A stretch of 64,000 nt of DNA from assembly GCA_903826205.1 (NCBI GenBank), contig CAIKDP010000209.1, positions 1-64,000 of the forward strand, in the 5' to 3' direction. Below the pieces are notes generated by a model. That model had not been told where the DNA came from. It worked only from the letters and a program-made list of their open reading frames with translations, and ran no database searches. A program made the translations under genes and the position numbers. Shown in pieces: positions 14,844 to 61,248 of this stretch (positions within the stretch are counted from its first letter, which is position 1; each line of letters starts with the position of its first letter). The DNA is from Akkermansiaceae bacterium. Its GTDB lineage: Bacteria; Verrucomicrobiota; Verrucomicrobiia; Verrucomicrobiales; Akkermansiaceae.

Positions 14844-14917
14844 GCTTTGATTTAGAAATCCTTGACGTCAGCGTCAAGAAAAATACCAGTTAATTGGCAG
14901 GAAGATACGAGGAGCGA

Positions 14918-16717: not shown

Positions 16718-16741
16718 ATGGTCATCCTGTAAGCACCGGGG

Positions 16742-17407: not shown

Positions 17408-17426
17408 CGGTTAACCCAGAGGGGGC

Positions 17427-19598: not shown

Positions 19599-19632
19599 AG
19601 GACTTCCTTTCAAATGTCTGATTCTCTCAAGA

Positions 19633-22600
19633 TCACCGGGAGACCTGCAGAAACTCGCTTTCTGCACACTCCGCAAAGTGATGAAGCTTTCTTAACCGGT
19701 CATCATTGCCGGCGCTCAGGGTTCGGGCCAAGAGCCTCATTTCGTCGGAAATCCGTTGAAGCAACTCTTTGTTGCCCGCTCCTGCCTTGACTGCTGCGCT
19801 ATTTAATTGTTGCAGGTTATCGAGATCGTTGCGATTGCTACAAATCATCATGGATCCGTCAAAACCATTCCCAAGATCCTTTTGCGGAATGTCATTTGCA
19901 TTGACCATGACTAGTGGGCCATCCCAGCCAAGGCTCTCCCCGTTGTTGCTTTTCGGTCGTACTACACCCAGTTGCATGGCCAAGAGCAGTGACGGGCCTA
20001 CAAGCTCCTCCACAGGAGGCACGAACAGAGCCGGATAGTCCTTCGCGGCCCCCTCTGTGTGTAACTCAATTGTGCGTCTGCGTTGATCCCCATCCCTCAG
20101 GCGTGCTTCATACGTTGCCTTGAGTGTCGCAAGAACTTCGATATATCGCACAGGGAACAATTGGACAAAGCGCAGAATGGTGATTTCATGTCTGCGGGTC
20201 GATCCGGTGTCGATGAAGGCAACCGAGGAGCCATCGGGGACGGAGAGCCGCAAGGTCTCCCGAAGTTGGCTGGCAAACCCCTCTTCAGCCTCAGCATCCG
20301 GCATTAAAATAATCAAATTAACCTTCAGGTTCTGATTTGAATGCTCAGTGCCAGGCCCCTTCTTCTCATGCTCGGCGAGGTTGAATGGCAGGAGACTGCC
20401 GGCTTTCTTGAGGAATTCGTTGAGTTCCTTCCTCATTCTGTCGCTGTCACCGCTGTATCTCTCCTCAAGTTTGTCGATAATACTAACCGATAGCAAGCGA
20501 TTAAATGCACCAAATTCCGGTAATGCCTGATTCGCGCTCGCGTCATAATCTTTCAACGTGGCATGAGAGGACCTGGCAAGGATATCGTGGATCGCACCCG
20601 ACTCCTTGGAGGTGGGCAATGCCCTCAAGCTGAACTGCCCCATCATCAACTGTTCATGGAGTTCATTCCTGGCACGGCGCGACTGAAGATTTTGGAATTC
20701 TCGATTGGAAATAAGAGCATCGACGAATCGCGTCACTTCGTCACCGTTGTACAGCCGGAGACAAACCTTTTCCGTTTCCATGGACTTCTCTTCAGGAGTA
20801 TGGGATATGACACTCTCCTCGCAATGCAACACAGCATCCTTCATTGCCGTGATTGATTTCTTCACGTGGTCATAGGTCCGCAGAAGTTCATTCTGCAAAG
20901 ATCGCGACAAGAGTTGCGAGAATTCCCAGGCCACGACCTTGGTTGAGAGACTGAAGAAAATGATCATACCCTCCTTCCCGGCTTCAAAAATCTTTTGCTT
21001 GTTGGCAGGAAACATGCGGGCCAGCGGACCTAAGTCCTCAAAGCGCTGCATATTGTCCATCCACCGTATCTTTTCTTTTGCTGCTTGTTTGGCCTGGGTC
21101 TCGGTTTGGCGTTGCAAATCCGCCTCCTGCCGTTTCAGGTGTTCACAAAGCGCAAGCAGAATTGCCTCGACTTCGAGTAGGGAGCGTCGCCCGTCAAGCA
21201 GGTCCGCGCACAAACTTGTCTCGATAGCTGCGGAGATGTCACGGGCATACTCGCTGATCCTGTCTTTTTTCCAGTTGAAGTAATCAACGACTCCCTTTTC
21301 ATTCCGGAATTTTGAGCCATACCGTTCCTCACAATGCCGCCTGAGAACGGCGAGCCAATTTCCTTCATTTGTTTCGACAATGTCATCGGAAATCTTACCA
21401 ATGTAAGTCTTCCATTCATCATCAATCGGCTTCCACGACTGTTGATCGTTCTCCGTCTCCGAGCTTGAAAAGCGCTTTTCCAGAAAGAAAGTGGCTCGAT
21501 CCACATTGAGTTTGGCCTGATTCTCGGCAGATCCCACAAAACCTTCGATAACTACAGAGGCTGGTTCGTTTAGAAAGCCCTGTGCCCAATTGTTGTAAAG
21601 CATCTGCCGGAGCGTTTGTCTTGAGAGGGAATAGCCAATATAATCACGGATTTCCTCTTCCGGATAGGAAATCTTCTTGATGCCGAAGGATGCGAAGAGC
21701 CTGCTCCGTTCCGCGGTGACAACGCCACCCTTCATGCTCCCCTCGTGAGAGATTTCCATGTTTTCCCATTCCTGAATGCGACCGATGGTCTGGCCCATGC
21801 CTTGGACTTCTGCTAGAAGCTTCTGATAAATCATTTCTGCCATCAGATCGGGGATCTCCTTGTCCACGTCGAACTTCAGACCATTGCTGTTGTGATCGGT
21901 GACCAGGTAACAGATCTTGAACGGGTCAGAAAGGGATGTCAGCCTCTCGCCGCCACCAATCAAATTGTATGGCTTATAGGCACCAACGCTTAAAGCGTTT
22001 AGCTCCATTAATGCAGCATATCCATTCGCATGATAGTTGCCAGTGTCCCATCCTTGCTTCGGATGCTCGTCCGGCAAGAGAAGATACAAGATGACCGGAA
22101 ACTTCGTTGAATCCTTATATTCCTTACGGATCAGGGAAATTACATCGATAAGAGCACCGCTTCCCGTTCCACCAGCTAGGCCGCTGACAATATGAATCGC
22201 AACTTTGGCCATGGCATTGACCGTCAGGTCACCAATCTTCTGATTGAGCCGGTTCTTAAATTCGGCAGCTTGGCTGGCAAAGAGAAATCTTCCGAGACGG
22301 CGCTTTTGTCCACCCAAAACCTTGGCCCCTCCCTTTCCCAGATTTAGAATCGCGTTCCAATCCTGCGGATCGCCAATCCAAGGAGCAACTGCCGGATAGC
22401 TGTGAATGTCCTCCAAGCGTGCGCCAAGGTCCGCACCCTTGAGTAAAATTTGATCGGGTGGGTTCAGTTGCAGATTCTGTCCCAGAACTTTCCAATCGGG
22501 ATCATTGACTCCCATCAGTTCAGGGCTGGAGTCGATATAAAGGTAGTCGATTTTGGTTCCTTTGGGTGACTGGGAGCGACAATCCCGGTAGATCGTCTTG

Positions 22601-22665
22601 CGAAGATTGCGGATAACCTTTCCGCCGGTACCGCCAAGGCCAATGATCAGATGATTCTCACTCAT
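19633..22665 (-). CDS. Large tubulin/FtsZ-like GTPase-type protein
   Basis: ORF 1010 aa; MSENHLIIGLGGTGGKVIRNLRK nucleotide-binding start, VSGLAGGTGSGALIDVISLIRK tubulin signature-like G-loop. Confidence 0.8.
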   Translation of the reverse strand: MSENHLIIGLGGTGGKVIRNLRKTIYRDCRSQSPKGTKIDYLYIDSSPELMGVNDPDWKVLGQNLQLNPPDQILLKGADLGARLEDIHSYPAVAPWIGDPQDWNAILNLGKGGAKVLGGQKRRLGRFLFASQAAEFKNRLNQKIGDLTVNAMAKVAIHIVSGLAGGTGSGALIDVISLIRKEYKDSTKFPVILYLLLPDEHPKQGWDTGNYHANGYAALMELNALSVGAYKPYNLIGGGERLTSLSDPFKICYLVTDHNSNGLKFDVDKEIPDLMAEMIYQKLLAEVQGMGQTIGRIQEWENMEISHEGSMKGGVVTAERSRLFASFGIKKISYPEEEIRDYIGYSLSRQTLRQMLYNNWAQGFLNEPASVVIEGFVGSAENQAKLNVDRATFFLEKRFSSSETENDQQSWKPIDDEWKTYIGKISDDIVETNEGNWLAVLRRHCEERYGSKFRNEKGVVDYFNWKKDRISEYARDISAAIETSLCADLLDGRRSLLEVEAILLALCEHLKRQEADLQRQTETQAKQAAKEKIRWMDNMQRFEDLGPLARMFPANKQKIFEAGKEGMIIFFSLSTKVVAWEFSQLLSRSLQNELLRTYDHVKKSITAMKDAVLHCEESVISHTPEEKSMETEKVCLRLYNGDEVTRFVDALISNREFQNLQSRRARNELHEQLMMGQFSLRALPTSKESGAIHDILARSSHATLKDYDASANQALPEFGAFNRLLSVSIIDKLEERYSGDSDRMRKELNEFLKKAGSLLPFNLAEHEKKGPGTEHSNQNLKVNLIILMPDAEAEEGFASQLRETLRLSVPDGSSVAFIDTGSTRRHEITILRFVQLFPVRYIEVLATLKATYEARLRDGDQRRRTIELHTEGAAKDYPALFVPPVEELVGPSLLLAMQLGVVRPKSNNGESLGWDGPLVMVNANDIPQKDLGNGFDGSMMICSNRNDLDNLQQLNSAAVKAGAGNKELLQRISDEMRLLARTLSAGNDDRLRKLHHFAECAESEFLQVSR

Positions 22666-22708
22666 ATTTTAATCTTTCAGTTAGGGTGTATTGATGAATC
22701 CTTCAGGT

Positions 22709-23497
22709 TTAGAGAGCCGGGCGATTTGATCTATGCGCGAACCATCCGATAGCTCCAAAAACCAACAGTTGGGTGATGATGAACAGAGCGAGACTGAGCC
22801 TGCGAGTATAAGATGCAACGGGTTCCACCTGCTTCCCGGCAATGTCCTGAAGCATCTTTACCACGACTTCAACACCCCTGGGTGCCATATAGGGTTCCCC
22901 TGGATGTCCTGTGAACCAGACTAGGATGTCTTGCTTAAGAATATCACCTGGAATTTCTCCAGGTGGAGCCAGAATGCTGGCCAGATAGGGGTTTTGAGTG
23001 GTAAATTGCACCAAGGCCGAGTGCGCATAGACAGTTGCGATGGTATTCTTCGTTGTGGGGTTGGTCATCGGGAGAGTGTGAATACTTGAGTCTGTCCTTG
23101 GACTTGGCGAGAGGGTTACCCCTTCTTCCAGGCCGGTTTTTGCTACTGCGTCCCATGCATCCTTGAAGGCATCATCCTGCCATTTTTGTTCGGTCATGGC
23201 TTTCTCTTGCCAGACTGTCAGTCGATTTTTGACAGCCTCCGCAGTATTTTTGGTCGATGCGAAAGTCAGCGCATAAACAACACTGAGCAATGCTGCGAGT
23301 CCACACAGGATCTGAAGGCCAAGCTTTAAATAGAAGCGCTTGTTCCAGAGGCGTGCTGAATACGCGGCGAGCATCCAGCAGATAACGCCTGCGAATGCGC
23401 CTAATACGACCGAGATTGGAAACACGAGAGACCTATCCTTCATGGTGGCGGCGAGGCTTGCCCACCAGAGTTCGAGCAGTTCAACTGTATATTGCAT
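22709..23497 (-). CDS. Membrane protein of unknown function
   Basis: ORF 262 aa with TM segments near both ends; co-directional in the operon. Confidence 0.6.
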   Translation of the reverse strand: MQYTVELLELWWASLAATMKDRSLVFPISVVLGAFAGVICWMLAAYSARLWNKRFYLKLGLQILCGLAALLSVVYALTFASTKNTAEAVKNRLTVWQEKAMTEQKWQDDAFKDAWDAVAKTGLEEGVTLSPSPRTDSSIHTLPMTNPTTKNTIATVYAHSALVQFTTQNPYLASILAPPGEIPGDILKQDILVWFTGHPGEPYMAPRGVEVVVKMLQDIAGKQVEPVASYTRRLSLALFIITQLLVFGAIGWFAHRSNRPAL

Positions 23498-23537
23498 TGG
23501 TTGTTATTGGTTGATTCAAAGAATATTTAGAAAATAA

Positions 23538-25316
23538 TCAATTTCCAGTCCAATCCGCTGGAACGGAGATTGCGACCCTGAAACCGAGTTCCTCTTGTCG
23601 AAATTCCCCAATGCCAGAGGGCATCATCGCCGGAATGGATACCTTGAGAGCTGGGGTAAGGCCGCTTTCAGAAACCGATATATCTCCACCGCGCATCCAG
23701 TCCTCCTTATGGCCAGAGGATTCCACCAAGGTCATCTCCCTTACGTTTCCAAGCATGTCAGTTAGACCTAGTCGGTTAGGGGGCAGGAGCGCAACTTGCC
23801 GCACCTTTCCTTGGGATGACTGAGGACCGGCAAACCACTCAAATTGCGCGATTTTACCTGAAGGATATGCTCCAAAGCGATCATTCCAAGTTGCTCTTCC
23901 CAGTGTTTCGCAGCCTCCGCGAGCCGCATATTCCCATTCAGCGCTTGCCGGCAACCGTATTTGCCCGAACTTGCCGGTTTCACTCTTCGGCAGAATCGCA
24001 TTTTGCCCCAGCCAGATGGAGAACTTTTTGCAGAAATTCTCTGCATCCTCAACCGTTACCAATCGAACGGGCAAAGCTGCATCAGCTTCTATCGATTTTT
24101 CCGGTGCCATGAATTGACTGTACTGCCCAACCGTGACCTCTGTCTTGCCCATCAAAAAGTAGCTCCGGCCGCCATCATCCTTGAATGGAGCGCGAATCTT
24201 GGACTCCGATTGGTCATACTCTTTGAATTTCACATGACCCATGTCTTGGCCAAGGTAGATTTTCCGGAATAGCATGGAGTATCCATTTGGCATAGGGTAA
24301 GATACATCTCCGGCAGACGGCTTGCCTCCACATGCAGCCTCCGAATATGGTAACGGATGCAAATCACCGCGGAAGGGTGCCTTGCCATTAAAATACCAGA
24401 GCAGGCACGGCGCACCGACAAATGTCATGAATCCAAGTGCTAGAAATACCGGTAATTTACCAGAAGAAGTCTCCTCAATCCTGATTCCACTGAGACGTTC
24501 AATTGCTTCGTCCATTCGCTCTTTGTACGGAAGAAGTGTGGAATCCTCGACCGCGAGGGTTTCAAGCTCGCCTTTCGCTTGCATGATTTCCTCCAGCAAT
24601 GCACGGCGTTCGCGATCCTTCTTTATGACGGGTGCGGTGGACCGCATAAGAAGCGTTTCGCAGCCCAGCAAACGCGTGGTTTTCCCAACGTATTGACTCA
24701 AGCCAGGCTCATAGATTGCTGCCTGCGAAGATCCCGCCAATTGCCGCAGATTATCAAGTGTCACCTGCGCAGCCTGCCAATTGCTCTTCTGAAGTTCAGT
24801 TTGGACCTTTGCAACCAGTTCGATAATCTGCACCATCATGCCGTCAGCGGCGGCAGTTGGTTCCCCGAGTTTGGCCCAAAGTTCCAAGGCGTCCGGTATA
24901 CATGAGGTTTTTAGATGCGCGGCCACGGCAGAGACCTTCTCCTTGAGCAATGGATTTTCACGATCCTCCATCCCATTCTTTGCCATTAACAGCACGGGCA
25001 CGTCCCCGGTAAATGCCCTCCAATGGGGCAACTGGTTATCCAGTTCTGTCCGGATAACCTCGACTTCTATACCGTTCGCCAGCCGCTCGCGGATGAATCC
25101 TGATCTCGACTCATAAGATGCAACCTCAAACGAAACACCACTGACCAAAGTTTTCAGATTATCTTTGGCATCCTGATCGCTGGCGAGAGACACCAATTGG
25201 CCCAGCAAATGTCTGGCTTCGCCCTTTCTCTTGGTTAGCAAAGCAGCCCTCACCTGTCCCCTAAGTAATTCGAGGTGTGCGGATGCTGGACTGGAGATGG
25301 ATTCCGACGGACTCAT
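23538..25316 (-). CDS. FGE/SUMF1-like domain protein with internal TM
   Basis: ORF 592 aa; LMGKTEVTVGQYSQFMAPE, RLPASAEWEYAARGGCE, GLTDMLGNVREM, LGFRVAIS. Confidence 0.8.
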   Translation of the reverse strand: MSPSESISSPASAHLELLRGQVRAALLTKRKGEARHLLGQLVSLASDQDAKDNLKTLVSGVSFEVASYESRSGFIRERLANGIEVEVIRTELDNQLPHWRAFTGDVPVLLMAKNGMEDRENPLLKEKVSAVAAHLKTSCIPDALELWAKLGEPTAAADGMMVQIIELVAKVQTELQKSNWQAAQVTLDNLRQLAGSSQAAIYEPGLSQYVGKTTRLLGCETLLMRSTAPVIKKDRERRALLEEIMQAKGELETLAVEDSTLLPYKERMDEAIERLSGIRIEETSSGKLPVFLALGFMTFVGAPCLLWYFNGKAPFRGDLHPLPYSEAACGGKPSAGDVSYPMPNGYSMLFRKIYLGQDMGHVKFKEYDQSESKIRAPFKDDGGRSYFLMGKTEVTVGQYSQFMAPEKSIEADAALPVRLVTVEDAENFCKKFSIWLGQNAILPKSETGKFGQIRLPASAEWEYAARGGCETLGRATWNDRFGAYPSGKIAQFEWFAGPQSSQGKVRQVALLPPNRLGLTDMLGNVREMTLVESSGHKEDWMRGGDISVSESGLTPALKVSIPAMMPSGIGEFRQEELGFRVAISVPADWTGN

Positions 25317-25318
25317 TG

Positions 25319-26956
25319 CTACCTCCGATCTGTCCTTTCGCTTTGCGACTTGTCGATTTTTAGAGTGCTACAAATTCCATCATGATAAACGCAACCTAGA
25401 AATACGCCAAGGGCCAAGGCAACAATTCCCATAATTGTAAGCAATTGCCACGAATACTGTGATTGAGCCGGAGCGTGCGTTTGGCGCCATAGAGTCGGCC
25501 TGCTATTGGTGATAGTGGGTTTTCTATATAGAGCGTCAATAATCTTATCCTTGCCTCGCAATTCTTCAGCATGTGTTGCAATCTGTTTTCCTTTTTCTTC
25601 AGATGCCTTTGACAATTCACTGGCGATCTTTGACACGGCATAATATAAAACCGTAGCTCGGAACCTCTCTTCTAATATGCGTATGTCGCTCCTATATTGC
25701 TGAATATCAGAAACTATCAATTTATCGAAGCATGGCTGATTAGTCCCGGACTCCGCCGATTTTAGGAGACCTGTCATTGATCTATGTTTACGCGTATATT
25801 CTTCATTAGTCGCATTTGTTGTATATTCAGCCTTATTAATTGCATTCCCAAATTCAGATTTCGATTTATTAATGTATTCTAGGCGGTCCTTGAGAACATT
25901 TTCACAGTCAATCATTTGCAAGGCTGTATCAAACCCCTCAGCAGGTTCCTTATGCTCAATACATGCACGATCCAGCTTCGAGAAAATCTCTTCAATAGTG
26001 GCTCTTAATTCGGTGCGGCATTCCTCAATCTTTGCATCTTGAATTTGCCTTAACTCTCCCAATAGGCGGCAAATTCCCTCCGTTGCCCATTCCTCAGGGT
26101 TTTTAGACCTGGCCACAAGGAGGGATCCGATAGGTTCTCCAATGCGTTGTGTAATTATTGAATCATCCAGTGACTGCCATTCGGTTATGTCAAGGGTTTC
26201 AATATTTCCTGGGCTTTCACCTGTGAGGACTACCCATTGATAAGGATCTGGCCGCTCATTTCGGAGATTCGTGGTAAAAGTGCAATCCCAAGCGTCTGCC
26301 AACGAGGAATCAGGTTCGTCAAGATGGTCCCGATACTTGTTCTCCCCACGCCAGGGATCCAGTGCGATCCATGCCTGATGGAAAAGACACAGCATGTCAG
26401 CGGACTTGAGTTTTCCGGTTTTCCACGTCAGAAGCTTGGCTTGGGGGCTGCTGCCCCTTGGGTAGTCGAAGGCGAGAAGCGGAGCTGATGCGCTGCATTC
26501 CAAAGGAATCGGTGCTTTCAACAAATAGCTAGATATATCCCAGCAGATCTCCTCGTCCTCATCTTCCTTAATCCAGCGAGGTTTTCCGACCCATTTATCC
26601 TTCCATTCAAACCCGAGCATGAACTCGAATGGTGAGATTATACGGCCAGGATGCTGATCCATCCACAGTTTCAGATCTGTTAAACGTAGCGCGATTGTGT
26701 GTGAGACATAACTTGTACGGCCTGTGAAATCGGTTGCCGGAACAGTCCTATTCATGACAGCCCATTTTCCATCGGGATCTTCTATGTGTCTGAATGAGAA
26801 AATCGGATCGCCATCGGCATTAGAGTAATAACCCCAATCACGTGCTTGTTTCTTAATGGGGTCCGGCATGGTGCAGGAGCATTCGACCAATCCTAAGCCC
26901 TGTCGGCTTTCCAAGGTTTCAATGCTGCTGGTGACTATGGCTTGAAGGAGTTTCAT
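25319..26956 (-). CDS. GTPase-associated (GAP1-N-like) protein with C-terminal TM
   Basis: ORF 545 aa; LLQAIVTSSIETLESRQGLGLVECS..., RTVPATDFTGRTSYVSHTIAL reminiscent of GAP1-N domains; directly downstream of the P-loop GTPase gene. Confidence 0.5.
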   Translation of the reverse strand: MKLLQAIVTSSIETLESRQGLGLVECSCTMPDPIKKQARDWGYYSNADGDPIFSFRHIEDPDGKWAVMNRTVPATDFTGRTSYVSHTIALRLTDLKLWMDQHPGRIISPFEFMLGFEWKDKWVGKPRWIKEDEDEEICWDISSYLLKAPIPLECSASAPLLAFDYPRGSSPQAKLLTWKTGKLKSADMLCLFHQAWIALDPWRGENKYRDHLDEPDSSLADAWDCTFTTNLRNERPDPYQWVVLTGESPGNIETLDITEWQSLDDSIITQRIGEPIGSLLVARSKNPEEWATEGICRLLGELRQIQDAKIEECRTELRATIEEIFSKLDRACIEHKEPAEGFDTALQMIDCENVLKDRLEYINKSKSEFGNAINKAEYTTNATNEEYTRKHRSMTGLLKSAESGTNQPCFDKLIVSDIQQYRSDIRILEERFRATVLYYAVSKIASELSKASEEKGKQIATHAEELRGKDKIIDALYRKPTITNSRPTLWRQTHAPAQSQYSWQLLTIMGIVALALGVFLGCVYHDGICSTLKIDKSQSERTDRR

Positions 26957-26974
26957 GAGCTTAAAACGAATATT

Positions 26975-28834
26975 CTAATCAAACAGCGAAGGCTCTGCTT
27001 GTGAAAGCATCCATAGGAATGGAGCTTCTACAAGATAGGGACATAACTTCATTGGATCGGGGCCCAATTGAACTTCTTTATCTGAACTCTTGATTCCTAC
27101 AAGCTCTATTGCGTGGCTTCCGAAGGCGCTCGCTGGGAAATACATCACGCGGTTGGAAATGGTCTCAGCGGCACCCACAATGTCGGGGCAGTATGCCCGC
27201 AAGAACGATCGGGTGACCTCCGAATTAGATTCGATGGCCCCAGAAGAAAGTTTTCCCCCCGGACAAACATCCAAAGTGAGATTCTCAAGTGGGAGGTGAT
27301 TAGTCAGTAGGTCATGCTTCCCCACTACAAACGCCAACGGTACGTCACGGGCCTGTCCCAAGGACAACTGAAGCCATGCCTGAAGGCGATCTGCTATTTC
27401 CGCAAGAATCACATCCTGGTCAAACCTCAAGCCGGTTCCCTTTTTCATTTTTCTCACCTGAGGATCCATCTCATCGCTCATCAATACCAGCAGATCGCGG
27501 TGCTGCAGAGGATCAAAGAGAAATAGGATACCAGAGGCCCAAGCAAGGTGTTCAGTGGTGTTGGATTTGTCGCGTTCCAAGTTGCCTGGCCGAAAATGCT
27601 CTCCAGCATTGTCGTAAAACACGATGGTGGAGTTTCCCCGGCTTCTGGAAACCAGATTGTATGTGAAAGGCTTCGGGAGAAATGCCCTGACTCCGTGGCG
27701 TTCAAACTGTCGGTAGGTGTCACCTGCAAGATAGGTTTTAGCAATGAAGCTTTCTTCTGGCTTCTGGGAGGGATTGAAGAGTTTTGAGATCATTGCTGAT
27801 AGAACGTCATTTCCCCCCGGATCCGCATCTGTCAAATTGATATTGAACTTGCTTGGAAGGACTCGTTTCAACTGTCTCACGGCGACGGTGAGGAAATAAG
27901 ACTTTCCGGCCATACTGTCGCCGACGATCGAAAGCATGTGTGGAGCCTTCTCGATGAAGTGTGGAGGGAGTTCTCCACGGCAATGCGGGCAAGCAAGGCG
28001 GCTACAGGGTACTCCGTCTGCAGTGATTGGAATGCCATCGGCCCCGAAGTTTTTTGGAATGAATCGTTTCAACTCGGTTGGACCGAGAACTTCATCGCCG
28101 TACTCTGAAGGATGGATTGTGAGAACATTTGTGGTATTGAAACGCCTCCAGCAACGTGGGCACCTGTGATTTCCGGCATCCGGCAAGGCAGCTGGCTGAG
28201 CCAGAGTTTTGAATTGTGTGGCGAAAAATCCGGCTCTTGCGTCGTCACGATAGACCACCCCCTTCTGCGGGCCCCATGTACGTCTCCCCACCTCATCGAC
28301 TACCTCCAGAATGGTCATCGAGGACATCACCAGCATCTTCGAATGGTTAATTGGACAATCGAGTTTTTTCCAAGCATCAAAATCTGCTTCCGTTTCAAAA
28401 ATGCTGATCGACCAGGATTTTTGTCTGCTCGCCTCTAGCTTCTGAGCCCAAGCCTTTGATGTTTCGCCAACCTTAATGAGGAAGAAAGCGATTTGGTCGA
28501 TCACAAGGGAGCATTCCTCAAGTTTTGGTAATAATCCGCCTTTGAACACGGTCCCATCAATTTGCAGAACCGGATTGCCCGCAGTCACTGTAAGTTGTAT
28601 GCGGCCTTCCGAGCGACTTAATTGGACGCTCCCACCGCTGAAGCCATAAGAGCCAAGCTGAATATCACATTTCGAATCGGCTCCGAAAACCAAGGGGGAC
28701 TTGCCGAGCATGTAGGTCCGACCGGAGAGACAGTCAAACACAGCAACCCCAGCGCTTGGTAGAGGAGGGGGGGGGGCTGGCTTCGCTGTGGCAATAGCGG
28801 TTTCAGCAGAATTGCTTGAACGTTTACTGAGCAT
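26975..28834 (-). CDS. FHA-like / zinc-ribbon / P-loop GTPase-like protein (double-GTPase type)
   Basis: ORF 619 aa; FHA-like N-terminus, CPRCWRRF...CPHCRG zinc ribbon, LSIVGDSMAGKSYFL Walker A, later STIVFYDNAGEHF switch-like and FVVGKHDLL (NKxD-like). Confidence 0.7.
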   Translation of the reverse strand: MLSKRSSNSAETAIATAKPAPPPPLPSAGVAVFDCLSGRTYMLGKSPLVFGADSKCDIQLGSYGFSGGSVQLSRSEGRIQLTVTAGNPVLQIDGTVFKGGLLPKLEECSLVIDQIAFFLIKVGETSKAWAQKLEASRQKSWSISIFETEADFDAWKKLDCPINHSKMLVMSSMTILEVVDEVGRRTWGPQKGVVYRDDARAGFFATQFKTLAQPAALPDAGNHRCPRCWRRFNTTNVLTIHPSEYGDEVLGPTELKRFIPKNFGADGIPITADGVPCSRLACPHCRGELPPHFIEKAPHMLSIVGDSMAGKSYFLTVAVRQLKRVLPSKFNINLTDADPGGNDVLSAMISKLFNPSQKPEESFIAKTYLAGDTYRQFERHGVRAFLPKPFTYNLVSRSRGNSTIVFYDNAGEHFRPGNLERDKSNTTEHLAWASGILFLFDPLQHRDLLVLMSDEMDPQVRKMKKGTGLRFDQDVILAEIADRLQAWLQLSLGQARDVPLAFVVGKHDLLTNHLPLENLTLDVCPGGKLSSGAIESNSEVTRSFLRAYCPDIVGAAETISNRVMYFPASAFGSHAIELVGIKSSDKEVQLGPDPMKLCPYLVEAPFLWMLSQAEPSLFD

Positions 28835-29292
28835 TTTGACTGTGTTGGAGCTATTTGAGATTGGATGTCAATACCTTGCAGAGAACAAGGACGCTAAGGT
28901 GCCTGGTGTTATGTCGAAATTTCAGCAAGGATGATTGAAGACAATTCATTGTTAGGAAACACCTATCGACACGGCTGCCCAACCGCAATGAAAAAAATCG
29001 GAAAAATAACGGAGACAGCGCGGTTAGGGTCACTATTCGGAGAGGTTCCTTGGCGCGTGGGGAATAGGTAAGAAAGAATTAAATATCCTGCTATAACGAA
29101 GCAGATCGACAGCCTGCCAAGCATTTTGAGCGGCTATTGTGCGCTATGCTGACAAGCCAGCGTGCCTCCGGCACTCCCTACCAAGTTGGAATGGGAGGAA
29201 GCACAGAGGCTGGGAGGCTGGGGAGCCTCACGGGAAAACTGCGACTGGTAAGCAGCGGCTGGGCGCAAGTGAGACTTTCGCCATTGTCAGCT

Positions 29293-30217: not shown

Positions 30218-33200
30218 TCACGGCTTGGGCGTGAAGGCGGGGCCGACGAGGGTTTGACCTTCGGAGGTGATCATTGCGGGGACGCGGTATTTGTCCACAG
30301 CGACGGCATCCGCTGCGGCAAAGCGGCCATTTCTGACATACCATTTGTGTTGGACTCCGCCACTGTATCCGGTGGCCCGCACCTGGCTGCCTACCACCGT
30401 CAGATCGACGTCGTAAAGCTCGACATTGAAGTCGGGGCCGGTGGCATAGTCGTCGGTGACGGCAGGGGGGCGGACGATGTCGGATCCCCACGTCTGGGTG
30501 AGGAAGTCAATTTGATAGGCATCGCCCGCGGTGACGGACCACTGGACCCTGGCCACCTCCATGGCGCGCTCATACGGGGTGAGGGGTGGGTCCAAAGCCA
30601 CATAAGGATTTTTGAGCACCATGCGCGCGGCACCATCACTGTAGATGCACAGGACCTGATACTCGGTGCCCGCCTCATAATCGGTTAGTTGCCAGTATGG
30701 CAATGAGGATAACGGCACGGCATCGAGTGTGGGCTCGGTGGCGTGGAGGATTTCCGTCGGGGTCTCGGCATGCGGCCAGACGACGGAGCCTGGACCGCAA
30801 TAGAGACGCCCTTCGGGTCCGTCAAACTTGACGCGGAAGCGGCAGGTGGGGTCGGATGCGGTTAGATCGACATAGACGAGCATGGAATCGGCGCCGGGCG
30901 GAACGGAGCCGCCATGGGCGAGCAGACCGATGGCCAACTGGCCGGTGCCCTTGGCGAAATTGTCACCGGGATTGCCCATGACCATGCCATTGACGGGGAT
31001 GGCCCCGGTGACGCGCACGGGCACCTTGCCCGCATAGGCGACATGCATGGTGACATGGCCGGGAGTGGCGACCGGCGGATCGCCTACCGTCGGGCCATCA
31101 GTTACCGCGGGAGTGGCGACCACGACGCCCCCAAAGACGCCGCCATGCTTGGCAGGGGCTCCGGTGTGATCGAGCCAGACGAGATGGCCCGCCTTCCAAC
31201 CGCCCGCGGGAGCGGCGGCACCCGCCATGTCCACCACCCTGCGCGAGGACGAGTGCTCGGAACCCACGGGCTTTTCATAGACATCGGTGAATGTGGTGTG
31301 GGTGCGGGAGCGGGGGGATGTTTGGCCAGCCCGTTCCAGATTGGCAAGGGTTCGATACTGGCGGATTTCCCGCTTGAGGGCATCCTGGCCGGTGAAGAGT
31401 TCGTCGGTGCGCTGGATGCGTTGCAAGGTGCGCTCGGCAAAGGCAACGGACGAGGCACGGGCCTTCGTGAAATCGACCCGCTCGGTGACGCCGCCACCAA
31501 AGGTGATAGACACGCTGATGCGGTCGATAACGGGACTGAGCGCGGTGCCGGCCACGCCATTGCGGGTGAAGCCGCCACTGTGCTGGACGGCGGATAGAGT
31601 GAGGATGGGACCGGCGACGGCATCGGCCTTGGCAATGGCCCCCACGCCATCCTGATAGAGGATTTCCTTGAACTGTGCCTCATTGACGGCGGGCAGCCGG
31701 ACATCGGCGTCGTCGAAATTGACGACGCCCGCATCATCGAGGGTGACGTTTTCATCGACCTCGCAGAGGTGGAGATCCAAACCACTGGCGGAGACAACAC
31801 CCCGGCGCGGACCCTTGCCGTAATCCCGATAGAACCTGCCGAAGAGGAAACAAAAGGCGGCTTTGACATTGGCGGGAAGTATGGCGAAATCGGGGTTGGG
31901 GACGGCGACATCGAGGTAGTCACTATCCGCCCCGAGTGATGATGATAGATCGGTGCCGCCCACCTCGCCACGGTTTTCCATGATGTAGAGGGAAGTGCCT
32001 GCCTCCGGGTCGCCATCAATGAAGGTGGGGACATTGAAACGGATGGACTTGCCGATGGGATCGACCTCGAAGGGCGGGGCGTCCGTCCAGGTGTCGCGGT
32101 AGCTGGTGGAGGCGTTGCGATAGAAGAGTTGTATATCGCGGGCGGATAGAAGGTCCAGCGGCTGGCCCTGACAAATGGCTTGCGACTGGACGCCGGGATA
32201 GTATTGCAAGGGATCGGTGGCGTAGTCCTGCTTGTCGAGATTGTCCTCGCCCTCACCGATTTTGGTGGAGCACAACAGGCTGTCGGCAAACTCCAACGAG
32301 GCAAGCGGCACGCCATACAACACATAATCCTCCGGGATGCGATAGGAACGATAGACCAGCTCGCGGATATAAACCCACACCGGCAGGGAGTTGCGGGCGA
32401 TTTTTCCGAACGGTCGGGAGTCTAACATGGATGGCGAATTCCATTGCTTGGCAAACCCGGCAAGCGTCACCTGCCGGGCGAAGGCCGCCAGTTCCGCCTG
32501 ATCGGACTTGGTGGCGGTGGGCATTGCAAAGACGTCGGCGACTTGACGCAGCCAGGCGAGTTCGTCGATCCAGAGTTCGTAGCGAGGGTTCCAGTCGGGC
32601 TCCAACTCGATATTGAGTTTCTGGATGCGCATGCGTTCGCCTACGACGCGCAGCTTGGTATCGGCAGAGGTGAGGGCATAACCGGTGGTGAGCGGCGTGC
32701 ACGAGCCATCGGGGACGGGAAGGGCACCGACACCCTTGACGCCCCATTTCAACATGCGGGTGCCGGATAGATAGACTTCCAGCCCGGTCTTGGAATTGAT
32801 CTCGGCAATGAGGTTGGAGAGCTTGGTGCCGGCGGAGTGATCGAGGCCGGTGACAATGGAGGTGGAGAGGGACGCGTGATAATCACGGGTGAAACGGAAA
32901 TCCCCCCAGGCGTGATTGAACGCGGATTCGAGCACCTGAAGCGCAGTGTATGGCTCGTCGGTGAAGGTCCAGACGCCGCTCTCCCAATGTTGGGGAAGCA
33001 GATGCCGGAACCGGCGACGCACCGCCCACGGGGCTTCCGCAGGCGTGGCCGCCGGTGGCGTGGCTGCCGGGATGCGGGATTCCAACCGGGACGCTCCATC
33101 GACGCCATCCGCGCCATTCTGCACGCTGATTTCCGCGTCATCGGGATCGGCCTTGGGACGCGGCAGGAACTTGGCATAGGTATCGTCTTCAATGTTCCAT

Positions 33201-33484
33201 GCCCCAAACACCATTTGCCAACCCAGACGCACACGGTTGTCCACGACCTGGAATGTTTGGATGTGACCGGAACCAAACTCCGTGGCTTCGCTCACCTCGC
33301 TGACCACGCCGGGGAAGCTGGCGACCGAGCCGAATGAATATGTCACGTAGTCGCCAACACTCAGGCCGAAGACCGTCTCGCCGCCGCCCACAATGTCCAT
33401 GATGACCTTGCCGGTGGCGGCAGCAGGGTTGATGCCCCATGCCTTGGAGAAATTGAATTCGCTGATAATGCCGCCGCCGATCAT
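30218..33484 (-). CDS. Large hypothetical protein, possible phage tail/baseplate-like structural protein
   Basis: ORF 30218..33523 with internal start MIGGGIISEFNFSKAWG; repetitive beta-rich composition, lies at the edge of the element. Confidence 0.5.
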   Translation of the reverse strand: MIGGGIISEFNFSKAWGINPAAATGKVIMDIVGGGETVFGLSVGDYVTYSFGSVASFPGVVSEVSEATEFGSGHIQTFQVVDNRVRLGWQMVFGAWNIEDDTYAKFLPRPKADPDDAEISVQNGADGVDGASRLESRIPAATPPAATPAEAPWAVRRRFRHLLPQHWESGVWTFTDEPYTALQVLESAFNHAWGDFRFTRDYHASLSTSIVTGLDHSAGTKLSNLIAEINSKTGLEVYLSGTRMLKWGVKGVGALPVPDGSCTPLTTGYALTSADTKLRVVGERMRIQKLNIELEPDWNPRYELWIDELAWLRQVADVFAMPTATKSDQAELAAFARQVTLAGFAKQWNSPSMLDSRPFGKIARNSLPVWVYIRELVYRSYRIPEDYVLYGVPLASLEFADSLLCSTKIGEGEDNLDKQDYATDPLQYYPGVQSQAICQGQPLDLLSARDIQLFYRNASTSYRDTWTDAPPFEVDPIGKSIRFNVPTFIDGDPEAGTSLYIMENRGEVGGTDLSSSLGADSDYLDVAVPNPDFAILPANVKAAFCFLFGRFYRDYGKGPRRGVVSASGLDLHLCEVDENVTLDDAGVVNFDDADVRLPAVNEAQFKEILYQDGVGAIAKADAVAGPILTLSAVQHSGGFTRNGVAGTALSPVIDRISVSITFGGGVTERVDFTKARASSVAFAERTLQRIQRTDELFTGQDALKREIRQYRTLANLERAGQTSPRSRTHTTFTDVYEKPVGSEHSSSRRVVDMAGAAAPAGGWKAGHLVWLDHTGAPAKHGGVFGGVVVATPAVTDGPTVGDPPVATPGHVTMHVAYAGKVPVRVTGAIPVNGMVMGNPGDNFAKGTGQLAIGLLAHGGSVPPGADSMLVYVDLTASDPTCRFRVKFDGPEGRLYCGPGSVVWPHAETPTEILHATEPTLDAVPLSSLPYWQLTDYEAGTEYQVLCIYSDGAARMVLKNPYVALDPPLTPYERAMEVARVQWSVTAGDAYQIDFLTQTWGSDIVRPPAVTDDYATGPDFNVELYDVDLTVVGSQVRATGYSGGVQHKWYVRNGRFAAADAVAVDKYRVPAMITSEGQTLVGPAFTPKP

Positions 33485-34110
33485 GGGAGTGAGGGAGTGG
33501 GGGTGACACCGTGGCCGCGCCACGCGAACAAACGTCGAGTGTGGGAGCCGTCCATCCGTGAGAGGCGCGCCAGCGGCGTGGACGGGTCAGTGAAGGAATC
33601 TGCCGATGGGGTGAGGTTCACAATCTCCAGGCGGGCATCGACCGTGATATATTCGCCGGGCTGCAAGAGCACGTTGTCGGCAAAGGGACCATCGGCGATA
33701 CCGGTGACGGTTTGTTCTTCGCCCGCGGCCAACGCCATGGGCCCGAACCCGTAACACGCGATCATGGATTCCTGTGTGACCGCGACGGCAGAGAATCCAA
33801 CAGGCGAGGTGAAGGGCGCGTCAAGCGACTTGACGCGGAACCGGGCCGTGCCACGGGAGGTGTCGCGTAGCGTGGTATCGAGCCACGGGTCGGACTCCGT
33901 TGCACGCCACTGTGCCTCGACCACACATCCGGCAATCTCGGGATGGAAGATGACACGCGGGGAGCGCGACACACCCTCGCGCCACGCGAGGTAGGGCAGG
34001 GGATGGTCCCCGACAATGCGCCAGCGCCAATGCCAGGATGTCTGTTCCGAGTGTTCTACGTGGAACAACAGAGCGGCAACACCATTCACCTTGGGGACTA
34101 AATGAAGCAC
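33481..34110 (-). CDS. Hypothetical protein co-transcribed with the 30218-33484 gene
   Basis: ORF 209 aa overlapping the start of the downstream gene by 4 nt. Confidence 0.55.
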   Translation of the reverse strand: MLHLVPKVNGVAALLFHVEHSEQTSWHWRWRIVGDHPLPYLAWREGVSRSPRVIFHPEIAGCVVEAQWRATESDPWLDTTLRDTSRGTARFRVKSLDAPFTSPVGFSAVAVTQESMIACYGFGPMALAAGEEQTVTGIADGPFADNVLLQPGEYITVDARLEIVNLTPSADSFTDPSTPLARLSRMDGSHTRRLFAWRGHGVTPTPSLP

Positions 34111-34219: not shown

Positions 34220-34444
34220 ATGAACACCAACAAGAAGAACTTGCTCTCCGCGTGTGGCATCGCCAAGGAATTGAGGCGTTCGGCACAAGGCGTGCGCGAT
34301 GCGATCGGTCGCCTGGGGATTCGTCCGGAATTCGAGGTTGCCAACGGCAACTACTACGCACCCGCCGTGGTGGAAACGCTGCGCAAGGAGATGCGGGCGA
34401 GAACCGGCGAGGGAACCAGGAGCCGTCAACAAGCCCGACGCTGA
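34220..34444 (+). CDS. Small putative DNA-binding (excisionase/MerR-HTH-like) protein
   Basis: ORF 74 aa MNTNKKNLLSACGIAKELRRSAQGVRDAIGRLGIRPEFEVANGNYYAPAVVETLRKEM. Confidence 0.6.
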   Translation: MNTNKKNLLSACGIAKELRRSAQGVRDAIGRLGIRPEFEVANGNYYAPAVVETLRKEMRARTGEGTRSRQQARR

Positions 34445-34451
34445 CACGGCC

Positions 34452-37400
34452 ATGGACAAGGAAGCACTGCGCCGAGCATTCGGTGAGGCGGTCGAGGCGG
34501 CGAAGCATTCACCGCAAGGGATGCTGCCGCGCTTGATGTCAGCCTATGCCATCGAGCTCAACGGCAAGGGCTATGCGCCACGTTGCCCGTGGTGCCAGAA
34601 GAAGGACACTTTCAATATCAATAACAAGAAGGGGGTGTGGCTGTTCGGTTGCTTCTACGACAAGTGTGAGGCCCACAGGGGAGGGGACGAGGTGGGATTC
34701 ATCGCATTGAAGGAGGGACTCACCCGACGCGATGCGGCGAAGAGATTGTTGGAAATCGCGGGGATAGAAAATCCCTTCGATGGGGTGAGGGGGAAGAAGA
34801 CGGAAGACAACAAGACTCAAGACGCAAGAGAAGAGGCTGACGAGGCTGACAGGTCTGAGAATGGGAACGAAGACGGCGAACCGGATTGGGAGGAATTGCG
34901 CGGGGGGAGGGGAGTGGAGGATGCGGTGGCAGCGGGGAAGTCGGGGGAGGGGGAGGGGCTGCGGTATTTGAAAATCCCTGAGAGCGGGAGGAATGCGTAT
35001 GAGGCTTTCTGGGTGGAGATGCGATTGAGTCAGGCACATCGGCAGGAACTCAAGTGGAAGCGCGGACAGAACGACAGGTGGATTGACGCGCTGGGATTTG
35101 TGACGGCCACGCGCGGGAACTTGGCGCGGTTGACGCAGTTGATAGAAAAATTTCCGGAGAAGGAGTTGCTGAAATGCGGGCTGGTCCAGAGGAACAACTA
35201 CACGCGCAAATTGGAAGTGGCCGGGATGCTGTGGGGCCACGTGTGGGATAAGGTGGCCAAGGAATACCGTGATGAGGATATTATCATCATCCCCTACCTC
35301 GACCGCGCGGGAAGGATCACCGGCCTGCGTCCGCATAAGCGCGGGTTGAGCACAAGCGACCACAGGAAGGAGGAAGTCGCCGAGTTCTATAACAAAACCA
35401 ACGAAAACCTGCGGACGATCTACGGCGAGCAATTTTTGTTGGATCGGCCCAAGGAGTTCGAGCATAGCTGCTTGATATGTGAGGGGGAATTCAAGGCGGT
35501 GGCACCGGCGATGTGCGGCATCCCGGCGATCGGCTTTCAAGGGATCGAATATTTTCTCCAGAACAAGGCCAGCCAGCAGGCGATCCAAACCACGGTGGAC
35601 TTGCTCAAGCGGAATAAGATCCGCGAGGTGATCGTGGTGTTTGACTCGGAGGCCAAGCTCGACAAGCCGTTTTCCGAGCGATTCAATGCGGAGATCTGGG
35701 CCAGATTCACGGCCTTGGTGCTGGAGGATCATGGGTTCAAGGCGCTCTTCGCCGTGTTGCCGGATGAGTGGAGGGTCGATGGCAAGGCGGATTGGGACGG
35801 ACGCCTGGCATGGCATGTTAGAAATGCCAAGTCCCACGCGGCGGGGCTGAAGGCGGCGCAAGCGGAGTTTCATAAATTCCTGCGCCACCGGACCGGTGAG
35901 CGGCCGTCGGTGCGCAAGCCGCCACGCCAGATGGACTGGATGTGTGATCTGAAGGAAGACGTGATCATGCAAGCGCTCAACAAGCTGCGGCATGTCCCGA
36001 AGATTTTCACCGGCGGCGCGTATGAGCTGGACCTGGCGACGGAATTCACGAACTGGTGCCACCCGGACTACAGGGACAAGCTGGCGATTTCCAAACTGAC
36101 CGCCGCGTTGCGTGAGACGTATGGTGGGTATTACAAGCCGAAACCGCCGAGCGAGGCGTTGGAGAAGCGGGCGCTGGACGCACTCAAGGAGGTCGAGGAG
36201 GTTTTGAAGAAGCATGATGAGGAAATGAACCTCAGCGAGGAGCAACTGCGACAATACCGTGCTGTGAAGAGCGCGGCGCTGACCACGCTCTACCGCTACC
36301 CCAAGGCGTTCACGGACTTCACGGCGGAGAGCAAATACAAGGTGCTTTGCCACGAACCGGATGGCAGCACGCGATTGGACCGGCTGATCGTTTTCAAGGA
36401 TAAGAACGGCAGAAGATCGAAACCTATCCAGATGGCAGGCGACAAACTCAACTCGTCACAGGAGCTGAGGAAGTTTTTTCCGAAGGTGGGCAGCTACCAT
36501 TGGTGGGGAAACCAGGAGGAATGCGACTACTGGCTCCAGGAGCTCGATGTGCAAAACTACCAGCGCACGATCACCGAGATCGATACCTATGGCTGGAACC
36601 GCGAGGTGGGACTCTATATCATGGGGGATTGCGCCGTGGGTTCTAACGGGAAATTCATTTTCCCGGACAAGCACGGGATCATTTGGCATAAGGATTTGGG
36701 CTACAAAAACTCGGAAGGCGTGGAATCCGGCACCGCGTTTTGCCACAAGCCCCCCATGCTCTTTCCCAATATGGCAGACGCTAGGAAAGCCCACGATGAA
36801 ATCGATTGGCTCACCGAGCAACGGGAAGTGGGAAAGATCTGGCGCACGTTGCAGAAGGATTTTGTGGATGCCTTCGGCGGTATCGCGGGCTACGCGGCCA
36901 TCGGTGCGATGCTCCAATACATGGCCCACCCGGAACTCATGCGCTCTATCAGCGGCAAGCCGGGCTTCTGGGTGCAGGGCCGCAAGGGGTCGGGTAAAAC
37001 CAAAACCGTGGAGGCGGGTATGCGGATTTTCGGCTTCCCGCGCAACTATGAGATCGTGGCGCTGGGTTCAACCAAAGTCGGCATCGAGCGCAACCTATCG
37101 CAGTTTTGCGGGCTGCCGGTGCATATCGACGAGTGGCGCAACCGCCGCGCAGACGACAATACCGTGGGTTTCATCACCAACGCCTTCAATGAGATAGGGA
37201 TTTCCAAAGGAACCATGGTGGGCACCAAGTCCACCCGCAAGTCCCGTGCCTCGACCATCCCCATTGTCACCGGCGAGGATGGGGCCACCGACCCCGCGCT
37301 GCGCTCCCGTTACCTGCGGCTTGTGATGTCATCCGCCCAACGTCAGGGCACACCCCAGGAGCAACGCCAGCGGTATTTCCAAATGTTGGAGAATGCTGAT

Positions 37401-38183
37401 AGCTATCATCGCGTGGGGCGCTTCCTGTTCAGGCACAGGGACGCCTTCGCCGCCCGCATCGTGCAGATGACCCGTGATTTCATCGCCGCCCCTGAGACCG
37501 GCAAGCGGATTCCGGGGGATCGCGAACAGGAAGTGGCTGGGATCTGTTTGTCCGCCGTACTCGCGGCCCAGGAATTCATCGACCCTGAGGGCATGGAGCT
37601 GATTGAAACGCCACAGATCAAGGAGTTCATGCTTAAGCACATGGCGGAATCCTGCTCCGATACGACCAATGATATTTTCATGGTCAATTTTTTTGCCGAC
37701 GCCGTGAACATGATCAATCGCGGTGTCCCGCATGTGGATAAATACCTGCGCATTTGCCGCGGCATGGTCGATGATGTCACCGGCCGCATCAATATCATCC
37801 CTGACGTGACGGCGATGAATGGCCGGGTCATCGTCCTCATTGCCTACCGCGAGCTCTACGACGAATTTATGGCCGACAAGGGCAAGCTGCGCGAAGTAGC
37901 CTCCATCGCCCGCTCCAATATCCAGGCGGAACTCAAGGCCGAGGACGCATGGGTCCAAATGACCGCCCGTCCCGGAGTCCATCGCTACCGGTTGCCATGG
38001 AAGAATGGGGCCAGAGACATTCTCCGCACCTACTGGGCACTTGATTACGAAAAGTGCCCGCCCGAACTCAGGGATGTCTTCCGCTCGATCTATGAGCGGG
38101 AACTGGAAGAGGTGGATTATGCGCTGAACGATAAGGACGAAGTCGTCCACCAGTCCGAAATGAACTGCGCTGAGGAGGACTGA
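34452..38183 (+). CDS. Primase-helicase: CHC2 zinc finger, TOPRIM-like and SF3/DUF927-like ATPase domains
   Basis: ORF 34299..38183, start at MDKEALRRAF; CPWCQKKDTFNI...CFYDKCEAH zinc finger; LICEGEFKAVAPAMCGIPAIGFQGI and EVIVVFDSEAK toprim; GFWVQGRKGSGKTKTVEAGMRIFG Walker A. Confidence 0.85.
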   Translation: MDKEALRRAFGEAVEAAKHSPQGMLPRLMSAYAIELNGKGYAPRCPWCQKKDTFNINNKKGVWLFGCFYDKCEAHRGGDEVGFIALKEGLTRRDAAKRLLEIAGIENPFDGVRGKKTEDNKTQDAREEADEADRSENGNEDGEPDWEELRGGRGVEDAVAAGKSGEGEGLRYLKIPESGRNAYEAFWVEMRLSQAHRQELKWKRGQNDRWIDALGFVTATRGNLARLTQLIEKFPEKELLKCGLVQRNNYTRKLEVAGMLWGHVWDKVAKEYRDEDIIIIPYLDRAGRITGLRPHKRGLSTSDHRKEEVAEFYNKTNENLRTIYGEQFLLDRPKEFEHSCLICEGEFKAVAPAMCGIPAIGFQGIEYFLQNKASQQAIQTTVDLLKRNKIREVIVVFDSEAKLDKPFSERFNAEIWARFTALVLEDHGFKALFAVLPDEWRVDGKADWDGRLAWHVRNAKSHAAGLKAAQAEFHKFLRHRTGERPSVRKPPRQMDWMCDLKEDVIMQALNKLRHVPKIFTGGAYELDLATEFTNWCHPDYRDKLAISKLTAALRETYGGYYKPKPPSEALEKRALDALKEVEEVLKKHDEEMNLSEEQLRQYRAVKSAALTTLYRYPKAFTDFTAESKYKVLCHEPDGSTRLDRLIVFKDKNGRRSKPIQMAGDKLNSSQELRKFFPKVGSYHWWGNQEECDYWLQELDVQNYQRTITEIDTYGWNREVGLYIMGDCAVGSNGKFIFPDKHGIIWHKDLGYKNSEGVESGTAFCHKPPMLFPNMADARKAHDEIDWLTEQREVGKIWRTLQKDFVDAFGGIAGYAAIGAMLQYMAHPELMRSISGKPGFWVQGRKGSGKTKTVEAGMRIFGFPRNYEIVALGSTKVGIERNLSQFCGLPVHIDEWRNRRADDNTVGFITNAFNEIGISKGTMVGTKSTRKSRASTIPIVTGEDGATDPALRSRYLRLVMSSAQRQGTPQEQRQRYFQMLENADSYHRVGRFLFRHRDAFAARIVQMTRDFIAAPETGKRIPGDREQEVAGICLSAVLAAQEFIDPEGMELIETPQIKEFMLKHMAESCSDTTNDIFMVNFFADAVNMINRGVPHVDKYLRICRGMVDDVTGRINIIPDVTAMNGRVIVLIAYRELYDEFMADKGKLREVASIARSNIQAELKAEDAWVQMTARPGVHRYRLPWKNGARDILRTYWALDYEKCPPELRDVFRSIYERELEEVDYALNDKDEVVHQSEMNCAEED

Positions 38184-38204
38184 GTCGGGAGTGCGGGCGT
38201 GTTT

Positions 38205-38545
38205 GCTACACGGGTGCTACATGGATTGCTACACGCCTTCTGGCTCTGTAACTCATGTTGTTTCAATCAGTTATTTTTCAATAATTCATTCTGTGTAGCA
38301 AATGTAGCGAATGTAGCAGTTTTCCATGCCTGCCACGCATGAGGATTTGCCGATCCGTTTCCAGCTCGCTCAAATCGCCGCTGGCTCAGGCACCATGCCC
38401 GTGCCCTGATGCTAAGAGCATGTGGCATTCCAAAATGCTACATTCGCTACATTGCTACATGGAGGCTCGTAAACCGTTGATTTACATGGTCACTGTTGCG
38501 TGTAGCAAAACAGTTGGCGCTACACAGATGCAGCGGTTTGCTACA
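38205..38545. repeat. Iteron-like array: 12 copies of GCTACA/TGTAGC, candidate replication origin
   Basis: Copies start at 38205, 38216, 38228 (+); 38294, 38303, 38312 (-); 38437, 38446, 38454 (+); 38501 (-); 38519, 38540 (+). AT-rich stretch 38246-38293 between the first two triplets. Confidence 0.75.
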
Positions 38546-38724
38546 CGGATTTGAACGGCTCTCCCCGTGCCCCGAATTTGGTGCCTTTGTGTTGCGACAT
38601 GCAGAGCAGGTTCGTCACGAAAGTCCCGCGCCCCAGCCTGGGAGGCCGATTTATTGATATTTTGGCGGTTTTCCATGCAAAACGTCTTGACGAGTTTTGG
38701 CAGAGGTGCTATTTGCCGACGGAC

Positions 38725-39177
38725 ATGAACACTCACCCCACCAAACCGGAAGAAGCCAAGCCAACCCGCCGCCGAATAGTCAAGCGGGTTGAGCCGTTCT
38801 CACCGTGGCAGGTCCTCATTCAGGACCGCTGCACTGAACTCGGCCTCAGTTCCCGCGCCCTGGCTGCCAAAATCGCCACCAAACGCCGCGAATACGAACA
38901 CACCACCGTCTGGGCCTGGCTCCGCTCGCCGGAGGGCGCTCCTCCCGGTAACACCTATACCCAGGATCTCAACCGCAGACTCGCCGCTGCCATCGGCGTG
39001 AGTCCTGACGTGCTCGCTGAGGCGTTCGAGGAGTCCCGCCGCAAGTTCATGATCACCAGCAATCCGACGCAGCAGGGGCCCCTCACCGTGCTCCGCATGC
39101 TCTTCGCCGAATCCAAGCGGGAATCTTGGAAAACCGCCGAGATTCTCAAGATCATCGACGACATTCGCGGCAACTGA
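38725..39177 (+). CDS. Putative HTH regulator
   Basis: ORF 38551..39177; start MNTHPTKPEEAKPTRRR; LIQDRCTELGLSSRALAAKIATKRREYEHTTVWAWLRSPEG...LAAAIGVSPDVLAEAF. Confidence 0.6.
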   Translation: MNTHPTKPEEAKPTRRRIVKRVEPFSPWQVLIQDRCTELGLSSRALAAKIATKRREYEHTTVWAWLRSPEGAPPGNTYTQDLNRRLAAAIGVSPDVLAEAFEESRRKFMITSNPTQQGPLTVLRMLFAESKRESWKTAEILKIIDDIRGN

Positions 39178-41212: not shown

Positions 41213-41250
41213 GTGCTTTGATACCAAGGCGAAAAACACGGGCGGGCGGG

Positions 41251-41462
41251 GTGCTATGTCACGGGCTGGCCGCTCATGTTTGATGGCTGGCCGCTGGCCG
41301 CTTTGCTTCGCTCCTGCGGGGCTGGGGGTGCCATGTCACGGGCTGGCCGCTCATGTTTGAGGGCTGGCCGCTGGCCGCTCTGCTTCGCTCCTGCGGGGCT
41401 GGGGGTGCCATGTCACGGGCTGGCCGCTCATGTTTGAGGGCTGACCGCTGGCCGCTCCGCCC
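41251..41462. repeat. Tandem repeat, 77-bp period, about 2.7 copies
   Basis: gtgc(c/t)atgtcacgggctggccgctcatgtttga(g/t)ggctggccgctggccgct... starts at 41251, 41328, 41405. Confidence 0.9.
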
Positions 41463-41650
41463 CACAATCCCCCAGAAAATCCGGGGACAGGGAAAGGCGA
41501 TGCCGCCGATCCCACGACCGCCTTCCGCTCTGAATGTCATGTCTGAACATTCAGGCAATCCACTGAACGTCTGAACATTCAGACACTCCCCTTGTGAATA
41601 GCCGCGCCGCTTATCCAAGGAATTATTCACGGCGCTACCCTAGAAAAAAC

Positions 41651-58477: not shown

Positions 58478-58712
58478 GCCCTCCGGCCTCCGGCCGAAAA
58501 AAATTCTTGCCCTCCCCTGCAAGATTTTCCTTGTCCACCTCCGAGTTTCCGCGCAATGTTGCGCCACGCACCACACGGGACAAACACGCGCCACCCCATC
58601 CGTCTCCCATTTCAGCTTTCAGCTTTCCCAATTTCTGCTTTTTCCCATCCGTCCCATCCCTCCCATTCGTCCCATCCTCTTCTCTTCACCAATGTCCAGT
58701 GACCATTGACCA

Positions 58713-60591: not shown

Positions 60592-60731
60592 TCTTCTTCT
60601 CAAGGAGTGTGGGCGTCCCGCCCACATCTTCATCTCCTATTTCAGCTTACCCCGCCCATCCGTCCCATTCTCTTCTCTTCCTCCTATTTCAGCTTTCAGC
60701 TTTTCGAATTTCAGCTTTACCCCCTTCTCCC

Positions 60732-61046: not shown

Positions 61047-61248
61047 CTCCGTAGCTGCGGCTTCCAGCCGCAGTCGGCTTCCAGCCGCTGTCCCATTCTT
61101 CATTTCAGCTTTACCCCTCATCTCTTCCTCTCATTTCAGCTTTCAGCTTTCCCAATTTCAGCTTTACCCCGCCCATCCGTCCCATCTCATCTCTTTCACC
61201 CATTTCAGCTTTCAGCTTTCCCAATTTCAGCTTTACCCCACCACCCCC

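Follow-up and report, generated by a model that had tools for sequence, protein, structure and literature searches.

What is the function of the dense cluster of short repeats that lies directly behind a primase-helicase gene in this 64-kb stretch of Akkermansiaceae DNA (the whole stretch analysed, hereafter the window)? An earlier note on the same DNA had read the cluster as a candidate replication origin resembling those recognized by the initiator-primase-helicases of P4-like elements, with a different motif. We propose that the array at 38204-38546 is very probably the replication start site of a Verrucomicrobia mobile element, similar in type to those described for staphylococcal pathogenicity islands (SaPIs). 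Our literature search found no described replicon for the mobile elements of Akkermansiaceae-type Verrucomicrobia, and the array is a candidate origin for them.

The array holds twelve copies of the 8-mer RTGTAGCR, all twelve of them exact, and the first copy begins 22 bp past the stop codon of the primase-helicase gene, which ends at 38183. The core hexamer reads GCTACA in eight copies (at 38205, 38216, 38228, 38437, 38446, 38454, 38519 and 38540) and TGTAGC in four (at 38294, 38303, 38312 and 38501). Nine copies form triplets, namely set 1 (38204-38234, minus strand, steps of 11 and 12 bp), set 2 (38293-38318, plus strand, steps of 9 and 9 bp) and set 3 (38436-38460, minus strand, steps of 9 and 8 bp). 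The outer three iterons (38500-38546) are 18 and 21 bp apart and of mixed orientation, with 38501 on the plus strand and 38519 and 38540 on the minus strand. Set 3 is an inverted copy of set 2, the two being contained in a 30-nt inverted repeat that is 87% complementary, and the spacer between them measures 119 bp with 55% GC. Between sets 1 and 2 lies a 44-bp AT-rich tract (38249-38292, 77% AT), the proposed unwinding element, and 0.03% of the window's 44-mers reach its AT content. The earlier note had thus described the array correctly in its count of twelve hexamers in 341 bp, its position directly downstream of the primase-helicase, the near-perfect inversion of the second triplet in the third and the AT-rich tract between the first two; its statement that the copies stand mostly in triplets spaced 8-12 bp holds for nine of the twelve, but not for the last three.

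Dinucleotide-preserving shuffles predict 12.1 such hexamers in the whole 64 kb, or 0.065 per 341 bp, and the Poisson probability of at least twelve in 341 bp is about 1e-23. When all 341-bp intervals were scanned for copies of one hexamer, the array came first (11 at its best placement), followed by CGCCGC with 10 copies inside a GC-rich gene, and the triple motif has one occurrence in the 5.57-Mb assembly. GC skew, which had been suggested as a check, proved uninformative: it tracks gene orientation and flips near 42 kb (cumulative maximum), not at 38.3 kb, and it was rejected as an origin marker because its sign follows gene direction. Close to this sign change are a 77-bp tandem repeat (2.7 copies, 96% match; 41248-41457) and, after it, repeated palindromes of the type CTGAACATTCAG (41530-41590).

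The putative initiator is the primase-helicase encoded at 34299-38183 on the plus strand and recognized with Pfam, PHROGs and Foldseek. Its ORF runs over 1294 codons from 34299, with a likely start at 34452, for a product of 1.2-1.3 kaa made up of a CHC2-like zinc motif, a TOPRIM-like DUF3854 domain (25.8 bits), an MCM-like AAA+ DUF927 domain (PF06048; 41.7 bits, cut-off 22.6) and a C-terminal winged-helix-like domain; it also matches several PHROGs primase families. Foldseek returned the SCCmec Cch helicase (PDB 5dgk) as the top match of the helicase half (probability 0.99, E 0.012, TM 0.35), on a structural model that is weak (mean pLDDT 62). In this model the C-terminal region, which we propose as the iteron-binding domain (37710-38180, plus strand, approximate borders), has a helix-helix-strand wing pattern with weak forkhead winged-helix matches, a loose likeness to winged helices. 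A PDB sequence search with the verrucomicrobial primase profile gave no match, and the related phage helicase L020 matched 8tch, a 'Pathogenicity island protein', at 7.5e-18 and 5dgk at 2.5e-7. Among Pfam families only DUF927 and DUF3854 pass, with no match to D5_N or Primase_Cterm, the P4-family helicase domain. The closest kin of the window's helicase is SaPIbov1 Rep/Cch (DUF927) and not P4 alpha, and membership among P4 alpha-type replicons was rejected because the helicase family differs. The P4 comparison made earlier is therefore kept for its reading of the array as an origin, the same layout recurring behind the same helicase type elsewhere, and dropped for the family.

Around this gene and its array, the element's replication and recombination genes span more than 25 kb. 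To the left of the primase-helicase, a divergent gene (30218-33523) encodes a 1101-aa protein of no known function, a homologue of which occupies the same place in a related element. Right of an HTH-like gene that adjoins the array, a plus-strand run encodes RadC, a DNA-ligase-like domain, a SNF2/DnaJ-type helicase, a ParB-like protein and a large serine recombinase (60607-62244, plus strand; PF00239, phrog_95 integrase). A 1045-aa protein encoded at 54705-57842 combines SNF2/helicase domains with an internal DnaJ domain, and a tyrosine-type integrase gene, besides that of the serine recombinase, lies just beyond the window (L018:6830-7942, contig about 66829-67941). The 64-kb window contains no tRNA genes, so no tRNA attachment site was placed. 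Further to the left, a minus-strand gene block (13854-29033) with lower third-position GC than on both sides is possibly a separate acquired island; its products include a Tubulin_2 protein, an FGE-sulfatase domain, an FtsX-like permease and a small protein that matches PADLOC mad3 (8e-26).

Homologues of the primase-helicase were identified in three genomes of the same order, at 75% (a broken gene), 32% and 31% identity. Searches of relatives and searches with an alignment as query gave matches; a single-sequence primase search of the genome_contigs, viral_contigs and phages sets gave no match, and a phylum-wide DUF927 search at E <= 1e-8, which returned one genome and missed the window itself, is an undercount. 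Behind each of the three homologues there is an array in inverted sets together with an AT-rich stretch, and the word differs: L016 carries three copies of AATGTTGTG and three of its inverse, L017 has words of the TAGTAGCAC and TGCTACTAA types, and L005 has words of the TGTGACTAG types. Steps of 9 bp are found in all three, with 12-bp steps also in L005, and the words of the window and L016 agree at 7 of 9 positions. In L016 about 0.9 kb of intervening sequence, duplicated fragments included, separates the array from the last primase fragment, and the region analysed there was positioned by hand. Between the broken primase and the iterons of L016, a second copy of the primase C-terminal domain is fused to an unrelated N-terminal stretch (L016:3434-3904).

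The layout extends well past these relatives. With phages and then plasmids added, reached from the IMG/VR phage helicase L020, we had 26 further loci, gathered by helicase similarity alone from Verrucomicrobia, from Clostridia and Pseudomonas phages and from plasmids of five classes; in each we analysed the sequence that follows the helicase gene, whether or not it held repeats. An array was present in 21 of the 27 loci (the window and 20 of the 26 others), the 7-mer count there exceeding that of every one of 100 mononucleotide shuffles of the region. In each of these 21 loci a short repeat occurs 5-16 times shortly after the DUF927 helicase gene, always in both orientations, and in most relatives an AT-rich stretch lies within or beside the iterons. 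Examples of the words are AGGTGAAAC in FP_Epona, GGTAACCGA in THSA-485A, GGGGAACAG in phiAH14b, GTGTATTCA in Kosakonia, TTGGTTCAG in E. coli, GGTACCACC in Skermanella and GTCACACCT in Methylobacterium nodulans. The words generally differ without all being distinct, as a GTAAC core is common to several Clostridia and Bacillus elements and GGGGAAC is found in two elements. When whole loci were scanned, 11 of 15 had the interval richest in a 7-mer no more than about 250 bp from the helicase stop (897 bp in L016), and so did 10 of 13 plasmid loci. A clear array was missing in six of the 27 loci (L024, L032, L035, L037, L047 and L052), among them the Nitrosoglobus plasmid L047, which has a separate RepM initiator gene and whose DUF927 gene is followed by no array. 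In six complete plasmids (12-17 kb) that have both helicase and array, no other replication initiator is annotated, as far as the incomplete PLSDB annotation goes, and at least two of the six resemble satellites or islands in circular form. In the Geobacillus plasmid record (L053:1-13067) the genes recur as a second copy after 6675 bp, and the record may represent a dimer.

As a prediction from sequence, the reading of the array as an origin is strongly supported by this comparison, in which the same layout, with mostly different words, stands behind the same helicase type. Might the repeats instead be operators, through which the adjoining HTH-like protein (38725-39177, plus strand) controls its own promoter and the replication genes? 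In the window, L016 and L017 its gene is the array's immediate right-hand neighbour, and the protein is kept in Verrucomicrobia relatives at 67% and 35% identity. The change of word between the window and L016 would fit either binder: the HTH-like protein and the helicase C-terminus have diverged equally, at 67% identity each, so the word difference cannot tell the two apart. We nevertheless consider operators improbable, if somewhat less so within Verrucomicrobia, where this gene accompanies the array, as arrays follow DUF927 helicases in phages and plasmids whose neighbours are varied and mostly hypothetical and in which the HTH gene is gone, and as operators usually consist of one or a few palindromes rather than twelve direct and inverted 8-mers at 9-bp steps.

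Still less probable is a partition (centromere-like) site for a ParB-like or ribbon-helix-helix protein. Some centromeres are composed of short direct and inverted repeats, and the window does contain a ParB-like gene (58713-59894, plus strand; phrog_1033), but this gene is 20 kb from the array and has a 9-bp tandem repeat of its own directly upstream (TCCCATCCG, 58643-58677), a candidate that could be its partition site; arrays, moreover, track the helicase in elements of other phyla. We give equally little credence to a decayed, no longer used origin in a dead element. Such decay would suit the broken primase gene and duplicated C-terminal fragments of L016, and the window sequence is from a MAG only; against it, the window's gene is open throughout its 1294 codons, no iteron departs from RTGTAGCR and the serine recombinase gene is intact.

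We hold with high confidence, then, that the array is the origin of an integrative, phage-like element, driven by the upstream DUF927 primase-helicase by way of the iterons and the AT tract. In the mechanism that we envisage, this protein, of the MCM-like Cch/SaPIbov1-Rep type, would bind RTGTAGCR through its C-terminal winged-helix-like domain, and oppositely facing helicase rings would assemble on the inverted sets. The initiator would then melt the AT tract at 38249-38292 and the helicase would load itself on the single strands, both as shown for SaPI Rep, while the N-terminal primase part would make primers. We infer the C-terminal binding, melting and self-loading from the SaPI/PICI mechanism and from the Cch and 8tch matches of the helicases, and replication from the array is likewise a deduction.

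The spacing of the repeats suggests how such rings might form. Neighbouring copies in the same orientation in the 21 positive loci are separated by steps of 7, 8, 9, 10, 11 and 12 bp in 2, 9, 37, 3, 8 and 6 cases (n=65), so that 9 bp accounts for 37/65 and 11-12 bp for 14/65, with 10 bp rare (3/65) in this small sample. With 10.5 bp to the turn, sites 9 or 12 bp apart face about -51 or +51 degrees away from each other, not far from the 60 degrees that separate adjacent subunits of a hexameric ring. For this reason an array may act as a template on which rings assemble around duplex DNA, with perhaps one partial ring per set and a pair of facing rings on inverted sets. The code common to DUF927 replicons would then be one of geometry and not of sequence, the word being largely free across phyla; this is a tentative idea, which we think possible but less likely than not. 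The 9-bp preference could also come from simple duplication of 9-bp units, against which speaks the observation that the bases between the cores vary while the step is constant. From the conserved 9-bp step one can form a concrete hypothesis of how a self-loading hexamer assembles on duplex DNA.

Among known systems, the alpha protein of phage P4 combines primase, helicase and origin binding in one chain, and its iterons are direct and inverted (ori and crr). The window is similar in that one protein has primase and helicase parts and, as proposed here, would bind the origin, and in its direct and inverted iterons; it differs in having another helicase family, another motif and its repeats in one cluster 3' of the gene. 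The SCCmec helicase Cch (PDB 5dgk), the top structural match of the C-terminal half, is like the window's protein a DUF927, MCM-like AAA+ protein, and is unlike it in being without a fused DnaG-type primase. Cch is related to SaPIbov1 Rep, and Cch2 groups with SaPI5 Rep and D5-type helicases; until the work on Cch2, SCC elements had no recognized canonical origin (PMC7581432). SaPI Rep and Cch2 each contact their iterons through the C-terminal domain, and for SaPI Rep these iterons lie directly downstream of its own gene, the helicase apparently recognizing them as two hexamers (PMC7581432).

The closest likeness is to the origins of SaPIbov1-type Rep and the PICIs, which are also directly 3' of the initiator helicase gene, with a primase that adjoins or is fused to the helicase (PMC6092414, PMC7581432). 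In PICIs the AT-rich region is always flanked by two iteron sets (PMC6092414), and the same paper reports a comparison of plasmid maintenance between an E. coli PICI pri-ori and a construct that lacks the ori (p < 0.0001). In the window, sets 1 and 2 flank the AT tract and set 3 lies further to the right; the tract is between sets with steps of 11-12 and 9 bp and not between the two 9-bp sets, which counts against the proposed origin. The window also has a different iteron word, twelve copies in at least three sets and a very large fused primase-helicase, and its element lies in Verrucomicrobia; the likeness is one of origins and carries no assignment to phage satellites. A 2018 paper called the layout unique to PICIs; it occurs on full-size phages and plasmids too, and the open-access literature gave us no account of this wider distribution, which is weak evidence of absence. 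The layout and mechanism are already known, and the element, its host group, its word and its fused protein are new members.
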